64,000 bases of DNA from Arthrobacter sp. PAMC25564 (lineage in GTDB: Bacteria > Actinomycetota > Actinomycetes > Actinomycetales > Micrococcaceae), in contig NZ_CP039290.1 in assembly GCF_004798705.1 (NCBI RefSeq), positions 1,240,001 through 1,304,000 on the forward strand, given 5' to 3'. The notes under the pieces are model-generated. The model was given only the letters and a program-made list of their open reading frames with translations, ran no database searches and had not been told where the DNA came from. Within the stretch, counting starts at the first letter, position 1. The number at the start of each line of letters is the position of its first letter. Below are positions 28,273-31,090 of the stretch, one piece after another. The position numbers and the translations under genes are program-made.

Positions 28273-29598
28273 CTACCGGGACAGGATACGCACATGGTCC
28301 GGGCTCAGCTCGGAGATCCGGCTGACTCCGAGCAGGGCCATGGTGCGCCGCATATCCGTGGCCAGGATCTCGAGTGCCCGGTCCACACCCGCCCGTCCGC
28401 CCGCCATCAGCCCGTAAAGGTAGGCGCGGCCGATCAGCGTGAAGTCCGCGCCACTGGCCAGGGCGGCGATGATGTCCGCGCCGCTCATGATCCCGGTGTC
28501 CAGGATGACGGCGGCGTCGCTGTTGTCCGCTTTCAGGGCGGCAGAGACCTCGGGGAGCAGATGGAACGGGATCGGAGCCCGGTCGAGCTGGCGTCCGCCG
28601 TGGTTGGACACCACGATGCCATCGGCACCGTGGTCGACGGCCCTGCGGGCGTCCGCGACGGTCTGGATGCCCTTGACCACCAGCTTGCCCTTCCAGGTTT
28701 GGCGCAGCCAGTCGAGGTCCTCGAACGTCAGGGTGGGGTCGAACATCGAGTTGATCAGCTCCGCAACGGTGCCCGAGTAGCGCGAGAGCGAGGCGAACGT
28801 CAGTGGCTCGTGCGTGAGGAAGTTGAACCACCACGCCGGGCGGTAGGACGCGTCCAGCACGGTCTTGAGCGTCAGGGCCGGCGGGATGGTCATGCCGTTG
28901 CGGACATCCCGCAGGCGGGCCCCGGCGACGGCGGTGTCCACCGTGACCATGAGCGTGTCATTCCCTGCCTTGGCCGCGCGTTCGATGAGTTCCAGCGAGC
29001 GGTCCCGGTCTGTCCAGAGGTACAGCTGGAACCAGTTCCGGCCGTCGGGCGCGGAGGCGGCCACGTCTTCGATGGAGGCCGTGCCCATGGTGGAGAGCGT
29101 GTACGGGATGCCGGCGGCCGCGGCCGCCTGGGACCCGGCGTACTCGCCCTCGGACTGCATCATCCGGGTGAAGCCTGTGGGAGCGATGCCCACCGGGAGG
29201 CTTGACGTTTTGCCCAGAATATCGGTGCTGAGGTCGATGCTGGAGACGTCCCGCAGGATGCCGGGACGGAACTCGATGTCCAGGAACGCCTGCCGGGCCC
29301 GGCGCAGCGTGATCTCGGCTTCTGCCGCGCCGTCGGTGTAGTCGAACGGAGCGCGGGGTGTGCGGCGCCTGGCCAGGTCCCGCAGCTCCCAGATGGTGCT
29401 GGCCCGCTTGAGCCTGGCGCCGCGGTTGAATTCGGGTTTCTTGAACTGCATCAGCGGGGCGAGGTCCGAATACTTCGGCACCCTGCGCCGGAGCGCGGCG
29501 GGACCCGCCGCCGGCGTGCCGGCGGCGGAGCGCCCGCCCCCGGTGTCCGCCGGCGCCCGGGCGGCCTCCGGGTTCACGGGCGGAAAAGTTTGCGTCAT
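28273..29598 (-). CDS. FMN-dependent alpha-hydroxy acid dehydrogenase (lactate type)
   Basis: This 441-residue protein is of the LldD/glycolate oxidase TIM-barrel family. It has the N-terminal [12 protein letters not shown], the FMN region [19 protein letters not shown], substrate Tyr/Gln in WFQLYLW, the active-site lysine region [16 protein letters not shown] and the catalytic [16 protein letters not shown]. It oxidises an L-2-hydroxy acid, probably L-lactate, to the keto acid, passing electrons to quinone or another acceptor. Close alternatives (lactate monooxygenase, MftD-like) are not excluded. Confidence 0.88.
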
Positions 29599-29769
29599 GG
29601 CTGCCTCCGGGTCTGCTCGTTTTCAGCGCGTGTGTTCCACAACACTGTAGCGGGGGGCGGTGCACTGCGGGTTCCGCCGGCCCCGGGACGGCAGCTAACG
29701 GCAGTGTTGGCATGAATCATTGCCGCGACCTGCCATCCCGCCGGGGCAGGAAATGTTACGCACCAGGTT

Positions 29770-29798
29770 TTGCCCGAAAGCCGCCCCGGGGCTATGGT
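29770..29798 (+). promoter_or_regulatory. promoter of the aromatic leader and DAHP synthase
   Basis: TTGCCC (29770-29775) and TATGGT (29793-29798) are 17 bp apart. The -10 ends 6 nt before the ATG of the leader peptide, so the leader reading frame should begin at or next to the RNA 5' end. Confidence 0.65.
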
Positions 29799-29804
29799 CC
29801 CAAT

Positions 29805-29864
29805 ATGACTAACCGTTGGTATGCGTATTTTTCGTTGGCTCTGGAGGGGCCCGCGTCGAACTGA
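29805..29864 (+). CDS. aromatic amino acid leader peptide
   Basis: A 19-residue frame reads MTNRWYAYFSLALEGPASN and ends in TGA. It packs Trp, Tyr, Tyr and Phe within five codons (positions 5-9), one of each product class of the pathway whose first enzyme follows. No gene of such size would be expected by chance in this position. The pattern is that of a transcription-attenuation leader: starved ribosomes would stall on the TGG-TAT-GCG-TAT-TTT block. There is no Shine-Dalgarno sequence; the frame looks leaderless. Confidence 0.75.
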   Translation: MTNRWYAYFSLALEGPASN

Positions 29865-29917
29865 CACGCATCCAACTTTCCTTCAGAGCCAACAGGGCAG
29901 AGACCATTCTCTGCCCT
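29835..29917 (+). promoter_or_regulatory. attenuator hairpins before DAHP synthase
   Basis: Two perfect hairpins are visible. TTGGCTCTG (29835-29843) pairs with CAGAGCCAA (29884-29892), linking the end of the leader frame to the spacer. AGGGCAGAG (29894-29902) pairs with CTCTGCCCT (29909-29917), 9 bp with a 6-nt loop and a weakly T-rich tail, the probable terminator. CTCTG of the first arm can also pair with the second CAGAG, giving a competing fold. Which pairing wins when the ribosome stalls cannot be settled by eye. Confidence 0.7.
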
Positions 29918-29977
29918 TCGCCATTTCCCGGCGGGTTCTGACCAGGGCCCGCTCCGCACCGGAACAGGACCCCACAC

Positions 29978-31090
29978 ATGAGCATCGAAGCAGCCCCCGA
30001 ATCCCGGCAGTCCACCTCGAACCTGCGCGTCAGCGAGTTCACCGCGTTGCCCACCCCGCAGGACATGATCGCGGAACTGCCGCTGGACCCCCGGATGGCC
30101 GACGTCGTCGGGCGTGGTCGGGACGAGGTGCGCGCCATCATGGACGGCGTCGACGACCGCCTCCTGGTGATCGTGGGCCCCTGCTCCATCCACGATCCCA
30201 AGGCGGGGCTGGAATACGCCCGCCGGCTGGTCAGCCAGGCCGAGAAGCACCGCGAAGACCTGCTGATCGTGATGCGGACGTACTTCGAGAAGCCGCGCAC
30301 CACGGTGGGCTGGAAGGGCCTCATCAACGACCCCCGGCTTGACGGCAGCCACGATATCGCGGCCGGGCTGCGCGCTGCCCGCCAGTTCCTGCGCCAGGTC
30401 ACCGCGCTGGGGCTGCCCGCGGCCACCGAATTCCTCGAACCGATCAGCCCCCAGTACATGGCGGACCTGGTCTCCTGGGGTGCCATCGGGGCCCGCACCA
30501 CCGAAAGCCAGATCCACCGCCAGTTGGCGTCCGGGCTGTCGATGCCGATTGGATTCAAGAACGGGACCGACGGCGACCTCCAGGTCGCGCTCGACGCGTG
30601 CAGCGCCGCCGCAGCGGCCCAGGCATTCCTCGGGATCGACGGCGAGGGCCGGGCCGCGCTGGTAGCCACCGCCGGCAACCCGGACACCCACATCATCCTT
30701 CGTGGCGGCCGCAAGGGCCCCAACTACTCGGCAGCCGACGTCCAGGCCACCTCAGCCAAGCTGGCCGTCAAAGGGCTGAACCCGCGGCTGATCGTGGACG
30801 CCAGCCACGCCAACAGCGGCAAGAGCCACCACCGGCAGGCCGAAGTGGCACTCGAAATCGGTGCCCAGCTTGAAGATGGCGGAGCCGCAGCCGGTGCCAT
30901 CGCCGGCGTCATGCTGGAGAGCTTCCTGGTGGGCGGGGCCCAGAACCTGGACGTCTCCGAACACGCCGCCGGCACGGAGGAACTCGTGTACGGACAGAGT
31001 GTCACCGACGCGTGCATGGACTGGGACGTGACCGCGGCGGTGCTGGGCCAGCTTGCGGCCTCCGCCCGCACGCGCCGGACGCGCGGCTGA
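29978..31090 (+). CDS. 3-deoxy-7-phosphoheptulonate synthase, class I (AroF/AroG/AroH type)
   Basis: The 370-residue enzyme condenses PEP and erythrose 4-phosphate at the entry to the shikimate pathway. It is of the E. coli AroFGH type: VIVGPCSIHDPKAGLEYA, VMRTYFEKPRTTVGWKGL, ATEFLEPISPQYMADLVSWG, IGARTTESQIHRQLASGLS, IGFKNGTDG and ILRGGRKGPNYS are all present, including metal and PEP ligands. It lies 113 bp behind the aromatic leader peptide and should be controlled by it. Confidence 0.95.
   Translation: MSIEAAPESRQSTSNLRVSEFTALPTPQDMIAELPLDPRMADVVGRGRDEVRAIMDGVDDRLLVIVGPCSIHDPKAGLEYARRLVSQAEKHREDLLIVMRTYFEKPRTTVGWKGLINDPRLDGSHDIAAGLRAARQFLRQVTALGLPAATEFLEPISPQYMADLVSWGAIGARTTESQIHRQLASGLSMPIGFKNGTDGDLQVALDACSAAAAAQAFLGIDGEGRAALVATAGNPDTHIILRGGRKGPNYSAADVQATSAKLAVKGLNPRLIVDASHANSGKSHHRQAEVALEIGAQLEDGGAAAGAIAGVMLESFLVGGAQNLDVSEHAAGTEELVYGQSVTDACMDWDVTAAVLGQLAASARTRRTRG

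Follow-up and report, generated by a model that had tools for sequence, protein, structure and literature searches.

A putative ribosome-sensing leader of the DAHP synthase gene aroF in actinobacteria, with coevolving RNA helices that extend to the Shine-Dalgarno sequence

We analysed a 64,000-nucleotide stretch of DNA from Arthrobacter sp. PAMC25564 (the window) and found, upstream of the DAHP synthase gene aroF, a short frame with clustered aromatic codons that is followed by alternative RNA helices coevolving across actinobacteria. The best explanation, to which we give a probability of roughly 0.55 taken as a whole, is a ribosome-sensing leader of the aroR type, akin to the leader of Corynebacterium glutamicum aroF, in which a chain of RNA strands would relay ribosome position to the aroF Shine-Dalgarno sequence. 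The wider proposal, for which we see about even odds, is an ancient actinobacterial switch that combines a mixed Trp/Tyr/Phe sensor, tuned by otherwise avoided Tyr and Phe codons, with four mutually exclusive coevolving helices that stretch across some 130 nt as far as the Shine-Dalgarno sequence of the DAHP synthase gene, and with a polymerase pause hairpin between. DAHP synthase, which catalyses the first step in making the aromatic amino acids, gates an industrially important pathway.

The leader frame (29805..29864, forward strand) encodes MTNRWYAYFSLALEGPASN in 19 codons, with its ATG at 29805 and its stop at 29862-29864. Its aromatic block, CGT TGG TAT GCG TAT TTT (R-W-Y-A-Y-F; 29814..29831, forward strand), forms the putative sensor, as judged from the sequence, a pattern scan and a reversal of codon choice. 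aroF follows at 29978..31090 on the same strand; its product belongs to the class I DAHP synthases (TIGR00034 aroFGH, 473.5 bits), and the closest of the best 80 named matches, a list that may omit records of the genome itself, is that of Arthrobacter sp. Leaf337 (91% identity). An earlier note on this DNA had described a 19-codon frame with clustered Trp, Tyr, Tyr and Phe before DAHP synthase, and frame, start, stop and codons all proved to be as stated; the same is true of the −10 box of the leader promoter, TATGGT (29793..29798, forward strand), with the leader ATG beginning 6 nt past its end. A sigma-70 consensus scan of 29600-30100 found no promoter, so the promoter call rests on a conserved TANNNT box and its spacing. 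Divergent from the leader lies a reverse-strand gene (28273-29598), which we take by eye to resemble an FMN-dependent lactate dehydrogenase.

A TANNNT box ended 4–9 nt before the leader start in 61/61 leaders, with a spacer of 6 or 7 in 59/61, and was present in 0/61 leaders in a control window 20 nt further upstream. With the −10 box so near, little space is left for a Shine-Dalgarno sequence before the leader start. This promoter geometry supports the reading of the frame as leaderless, as had been proposed from the window alone. The accompanying remark that a leaderless frame is unusual for an attenuator did not hold up, given that leaderless leader peptides are known in S. lividans and C. 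diphtheriae: most leader peptides described by RNA-seq in S. lividans are leaderless, according to the part of that report drawn on here, and RNA-seq likewise identified the C. diphtheriae ilvB leader as leaderless. In C. glutamicum, 33% of mRNAs are leaderless. A study by Morbach from 2000 reportedly dealt with C. glutamicum ilvBNC.

Within the genus, a pattern tolerant of synonymous codons matched in 98/101 genomes and the reversed control pattern in 0/101. Among the genus matches listed, each one has TGGTATGCGTATTTT, and the leader sequence is nearly invariant across the genus; the leader is not a chance frame. In the window's family, class I aroF was present in 59 of 149 sampled genomes, and the leader preceded it at all 59 loci. 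The block, of which only three codon versions occur, reads W-Y-A-Y-F at 58 of these loci and W-Y-A-N-F at one (L108, genome G210), the sole case with an Asn codon in place of the second Tyr codon. A set of 110 family leaders was picked by the exact TGGTATGCGTATTT pattern, so that the invariance of the block among these 110 is by construction; the 98/101 count, the aroF-based 59/59 count and the codon counts outside the family are free of this selection.

Confinement of the leader to the window's family was considered and rejected. The leader had looked confined because the pattern used to scan the order was too strict, giving only four matches beyond the family (one mismatch each); an aroF-based search found it widely. 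aroF matched in 79/317 genomes of the order, and a W/Y/F leader with the same RNA layout was present at 42/57 loci examined in its other families. No leader was found at the remaining 15, which comprise 13 loci of family f4 (sampled from 8 genomes) and two extra aroF copies in one genome. Genomes of f4 mostly carry two class I aroF copies (loci such as L216-L228), with no aromatic leader found before those examined, a pattern similar to that of the Bifidobacteriaceae loci L257 and L280.

We also examined 25 of the 26 actinobacterial loci among the best 80 named AroF matches and found the leader at 19/25, in four Arthrobacter, Microbacterium, Isoptericola, Puerhibacterium, Williamsia, Mycolicibacterium, two Mycobacterium, Dietzia, a Streptosporangiaceae MAG, two Pseudonocardia, two Amycolatopsis and two Rhodococcus. 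The filter found no leader at 6/25 (two Nocardiopsis, Gryllotalpicola and three Bifidobacteriaceae). Two leaders, L185 in the order set and L243 in the named set, were read by eye. In a second family, with Rhodococcus-/Mycobacterium-like AroF, aroF was present in 135/161 genomes; leaders were surveyed at 50 loci out of these 135 genomes, using a filter that has the −10 box among its criteria, and were found at 30/30 best loci and at 19/20 further loci. Leaders with Y-F-W-F occur at L306 (Rhodococcus) and at the 30 best second-family loci, and leaders with W-R-F-Y-F at L339 and L340 of the second family, which we took as corynebacterial. A mix of Trp, Tyr and Phe is thus common in aroF leaders across the actinobacterial class; the peptide past the aromatic block is highly variable over the class. 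Joint sensing of all three amino acids by the window's leader, put forward in the earlier note, is a hypothesis.

The sensor codons are chosen in reverse of the usage in aroF. In leaders outside the family (52 leaders, 26 genera, selected on the encoded residues whatever the codon; L211 was not located and was dropped from the 53), we counted TAT 53, TAC 3, TTT 45 and TTC 12. TAT and TTT therefore make up 98/113 of the Tyr and Phe codons, vs 2/363 in aroF itself, counted at 31 loci that include some of the family (TAT 1, TAC 156, TTT 1, TTC 205). The reversal is strongest for Tyr and Phe codons, since other codons of the same leaders less often end in A or T (79/234 up to the last aromatic codon, 128/585 beyond it). 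Two readings suggest themselves: U-ending codons may be decoded more slowly and be more sensitive to starvation, or they may be needed so that this part of the RNA has little structure or can pair with a strand past the leader stop (helix 1':2', below). As far as is known, these bacteria have a single tRNA species each for Tyr and Phe. Selective-charging theory, in the part of its source used here, links codon choice in attenuators to the charging of isoacceptors and, with one tRNA species for each amino acid, would not apply. The aroF leader is thereby well suited to a clean test of the preference of attenuators for particular synonymous codons.

We then considered the RNA, all elements of which lie on the forward strand. 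The leader RNA had a fold z-score of −4.27, with equally stable shuffles in 0/200. Two hairpins stand flush against each other: 1:2, with 14 bp including one G-U pair (29834-29847 with 29880-29893), and P2, with 10 bp (29894-29903 with 29908-29917). Both had been noted before, the first as a perfect 9-bp hairpin and the second as one of 9 bp; the hairpins stand, and the lengths and the perfection of the first do not. Three further elements are absent from the earlier note: a third hairpin, in which 29931-29939 pairs with 29944-29952, a helix between strand 2 (29880-29893) and 29934-29941, and a pairing of the Shine-Dalgarno sequence.

In each leader we defined strand 1 after the aromatic codons, strand 2 before P2, strands 3 and 4 as the arms of P2, strands 5 and 6 after P2, and strand 7 as the last nucleotides before aroF. 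In the window, strand 1 (29834..29847) lies in the codons for S-L-A-L-E-G and pairs with strand 2 in the 14-bp helix, as indicated by folding and by the swap test described below. Strand 2 (29880..29893) has strand 1 or strand 5 as its partner, and strand 5 (29931..29941) pairs with strand 2 through 29934-29941 or with strand 6 through 29931-29939, both on the evidence of the ribosome model and the swap test. The swap test also assigns strand 6 (29944..29952), with partner 5 or 7, and strand 7 (29961..29972), which contains the aroF Shine-Dalgarno AGGA. Upstream, strand 1' (29815..29826) lies over the W/Y codons and pairs, with one bulged U, with strand 2' (29866..29876), which begins immediately past the leader stop; folding and the swap test point to both, as does the sequence for 1'. 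P2 (29894..29917) is followed by the tail TCGCCATTTC (29918..29927), a candidate pause site or weak terminator tail by its loose motif.

The partner-swap test compares the pairing of a strand with its own partner and with the partner from another genus; a true helix should favour its own. We applied it to leaders chosen by hand for clean segmentation (47 leaders). The test was repeated without overlap because the strand 5 and 6 windows had partly overlapped in earlier versions, and two leaders of one genus, with strand 6 shorter than 8 nt, were dropped in the repeat. In this non-overlapping version (45 leaders, 27 genera), z was −7.5 for 1:2, −13.4 for 3:4 (P2), −4.0 for 2:5, −6.4 for 5:6 and −6.5 for 6:7, with p = 0.0001 for each of these five helices. 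All 13 control pairings gave a z of −2.1 or weaker, and 11 gave p > 0.05, the exceptions being 1:3 (p = 0.018, z −2.1) and 4:7 (p = 0.037, z −1.8). The earlier tests with partly overlapping windows (28 and 47 leaders) agree, save for 2:4, a pairing of very weak energies (p = 0.0024 with 28 leaders, 0.11 with 47 and 0.098 with 45). Helices 1:2, 2:5, 5:6 and 6:7 are thus alternatives that share strands, linked in a chain whose last strand holds the aroF Shine-Dalgarno sequence.

Compensatory changes can be read off the sequence listings, from GUUGG/CCAAC to GUCGG/CCGAC in 1:2, and as GGGUCC/GGACCC, CGGUCC/GGACCG, GGCUCC/GGAGCC and GUCCCG/CGGGAC in 6:7. The swap test gave p = 0.0004 for 1':2' class-wide and p = 0.066 within the family, where 1' scarcely varies. 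Within the family, a stricter covariation scan that takes phylogeny into account ranked two P2 pairs at the top (E = 0.07 and 0.10) and gave no pair at E 0.05, for which reason the case for coevolution rests on the wider set. With codons and hairpins conserved in relatives, the earlier note's idea of an aromatic leader-peptide attenuator of aroF is supported.

Other pairings were tried and set aside. Strand 5 can pair directly with the Shine-Dalgarno sequence, strongly at some transcript lengths in the window, yet this pairing does not coevolve. An antiterminator made of strand 1 and the 3' arm of P2 had a probability of 0.00 in the window and no coevolution. We judged it unlikely that 1':2' and 1:2 form together in full as a pseudoknot, because just 3 nt (29877-29879) would be left to bridge an 11-bp helix. 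Rfam returned no family, T-box included, at the gathering threshold in the window, two chance-level miRNA matches (E 0.6-0.8) and nothing at the leader in 29000-31000, and, at six further loci, two tRNAs and one cobalamin riboswitch, none at the leader. The riboswitch (RF00174, 81.8 bits; L306, 892-1136, reverse strand) lies a few hundred bases upstream of aroF.

Leaders of the Rhodococcus type, with YFWF (L306, L309-L338), seem to be without P2, by eye in L306 and L256. Their equivalent of strand 2, GAGCCGG, pairs immediately with CCGGCUC, and in L256 a further strand, GGGUCGG, can pair with CCGGCUC, giving the same chain minus the inserted hairpin. In the presumed corynebacterial leaders MRMWRFYFSKAPEAETS and MRNWRFYFEWGSGR, strand 1, strand 2 and P2 are each visible by eye; strands 5 and 6 were not seen by eye in L339, itself presumed corynebacterial.

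Each of the helices 1:2, 2:5, 5:6 and 6:7 has a strand in common with the next, which leaves two complete sets of helices that can coexist: state A, with 1:2 and 5:6, and state B, with 2:5, 6:7 and 1':2'. We modelled the ribosome at several positions in 31 leaders. With the ribosome on Trp13 or Tyr16 (W or first Y), the probability of 1:2 exceeded 0.5 in 30/31 and 31/31 leaders, respectively. At the leader stop, 2:5 exceeded 0.5 in 30/31; only the RNA downstream was folded here, so that the loss of 1:2 is by construction. In the absence of a ribosome, 1:2 won in 21 and 2:5 in 10 of the 31, and in ribosome-free RNA of seven genus leaders 1:2 was already dominant. A stall at the second Tyr or at Phe gave 1:2 in 30/31 and 22/31 leaders when pairing was allowed to 9 nt from the A site, and in 11/31 and 1/31 when 13 nt were masked. 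P2 had a probability of 0.97 in the window at each ribosome position modelled. These models indicate that the switching partners are 1:2 and 2:5. The two hairpins 1:2 and P2 were rejected as a terminator/antiterminator pair, as both can be present at once, next to each other, and P2 does not switch in any state modelled for the window.

Helix 6:7 covers the aroF Shine-Dalgarno sequence. With the two states forced, its opening was easier in state A for 23/31 leaders and in state B for 7, with one tie; by genus, it was easier in A in 17/28 and in B in 9 (Wilcoxon p = 0.014). For the window leader the opening energy was 3.3 kcal/mol in the 1:2 state vs 4.8 in the 2:5 state, and 4/7 genus leaders in the same comparison favoured the 1:2 state. 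A second comparison, averaged over two genus leaders, favoured the 2:5 state (2.6 vs 5.0 for 1:2), and the modelled opening energies for the window's own genus are ambiguous. An attempt to derive the translational sign from opening of the Shine-Dalgarno sequence together with the start codon gave no direction (easier with the W stall in 44/109) and was abandoned. A CUUCGYCAUUU-like motif follows P2 in its loose form in 44/47 leaders, though the sequence of P2 itself varies freely; this conserved tail has the look of a pause site for polymerase or of the tail of a weak terminator.

Under the ribosome-sensing reading, scarcity of charged aromatic tRNAs would stall the ribosome on W/Y/Y/F. A stall at W or the first Y would leave strand 1 free, and the stalled ribosome would favour 1:2 and 5:6, leaving the Shine-Dalgarno sequence free and aroF presumably on. 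Fast translation to the stop, a position that would put strand 1 out of reach, would open 1:2 and allow 2:5 and 6:7 to form, so that the Shine-Dalgarno sequence would be covered and aroF off; 1':2' may hold this off state while the sensor codons are free of ribosomes. P2 and its conserved tail may act as a pause site for RNA polymerase or a partial terminator, keeping polymerase and ribosome in step, and the rare U-ending codons may slow the sensor.

A purely transcriptional attenuator, as in C. glutamicum aroR, would instead make P2 an intrinsic terminator set by ribosome position, with the downstream helices secondary. In its favour, a review, in the part cited here, describes increased transcription of the C. 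glutamicum aroF operon upon ribosome stalling under Phe limitation (PMC11802643), and U-runs follow P2 in some relatives (TTTTGTC in Mycolicibacterium and in L339, TTTCGTTTTT in Mycobacterium, TTTTTATG in one genus of the family). The window itself argues otherwise: a terminator scan of the stretch found none, the tail TCGCCATTTC is without a U-run, and P2 stays at 0.97 whatever ribosome position is modelled. A competing antiterminator for a P2 arm was not found by window folding or by the swap test of seven pairs of strand 3 or 4 with other strands, five of which gave p > 0.05 (1:3 and 4:7 being the two low ones). The coevolution of strand 6 with the Shine-Dalgarno strand would also be left unexplained, and we consider a purely transcriptional mechanism rather unlikely. 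Having weighed the Shine-Dalgarno evidence, the U-runs of relatives and the mixed literature on C. glutamicum, where another paper labels the aroF leader translational, we hold with moderate confidence that control is most likely translational, with P2 as a pause or partial terminator.

The sign of the switch could also be opposite, with 5:6 as the terminator or block and 2:5 as the on state, in which a ribosome masking strand 1 would let 2:5 prevent 5:6. Stalls at the second Tyr and at Phe with 13 nt masked fit this arrangement, favouring 2:5 in 18/31 and 28/31 leaders, as does the readier opening of the Shine-Dalgarno sequence in the 2:5 state in the two-leader comparison from the window's genus. 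However, stalls at Trp and the first Tyr give 1:2 (30/31 and 31/31), a U-run after 5:6 was not seen by eye in the listed sequences, and the coevolving 6:7 would cover the Shine-Dalgarno sequence in the on state, all of which makes this sign improbable in our judgement. An action of the peptide or leader RNA in trans, for which peTrpL of Sinorhizobium meliloti is a precedent (in the part of that work considered here), would agree with a leader nearly unchanged within the genus. Across the class, however, the peptide past the aromatic block differs greatly, and in genome G114 (L089/L063) a single base inserted behind the Phe codon shifts the frame and changes the end of the peptide while the RNA strands are kept, a natural test of the C-terminal part of the peptide. 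We therefore regard action in trans as very unlikely; the G114 frameshift is natural support, at the level of sequence, for a role of the RNA in cis.

Several known systems resemble the leader proposed here. The E. coli trp and pheA attenuators have a Shine-Dalgarno start, a U-run terminator and an antiterminator that takes an arm of the terminator. They share regulatory codons, ribosome position and alternative RNA helices with the window's leader, whereas none of these other three traits was seen in the window. The mycobacterial polycysteine leaderless short ORFs, reportedly described by Canestrari in 2020, are said to let ribosome speed set the translation of the downstream gene. They resemble the window's leader in being leaderless short ORFs and in this coupling, which is proposed for the window, and differ in using cysteine as the sensor; we know of no chain of four alternative helices in them. 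Work by Neshat from 2014 is said to concern the aroR leader of C. glutamicum aroF.

The LEU element of actinobacterial leuA (Seliverstov 2005), in the part of the description compared, likewise involves leader codons and the Shine-Dalgarno sequence in alternative folds; in that element it is the Leu codons themselves that pair with the Shine-Dalgarno sequence, whereas in the window intermediate strands would carry the signal. In 2005, a survey of actinobacteria did not find a conserved RNA structure for phenylalanine/tyrosine operons (PMC1262725), and our literature search, which covered titles and the openings of abstracts of the papers listed, with most subscription papers outside its scope, showed neither an aroF leader outside Corynebacterium nor the helix chain. 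The leader peptide of C. glutamicum aroF is known from RNA-seq (PMC4046766; PMC11802643, as far as the cited sections go). As in the window, C. glutamicum aroR (Mentz 2013, in the text compared) is a leader peptide with clustered aromatic residues before the DAHP synthase gene aroF. It was reported as F-Y-F with a response to Phe, whereas the window has W-Y-A-Y-F and strands 5–7; the review sections used describe a response to Phe limitation and not to Tyr availability (PMC11802643). The text compared makes no mention of a Shine-Dalgarno switch for aroR, which is predicted for the window's leader. The C. glutamicum aroR leader is thus known, and what is new here is the coevolving helix chain to the Shine-Dalgarno sequence, the class-wide leader family, the constancy of the presumed terminator P2 at every ribosome position modelled for the window and the reversal of the sensor codons. 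C. glutamicum aroR, the case already described, would then be one member of a family that spans the class and whose predicted output is translational.
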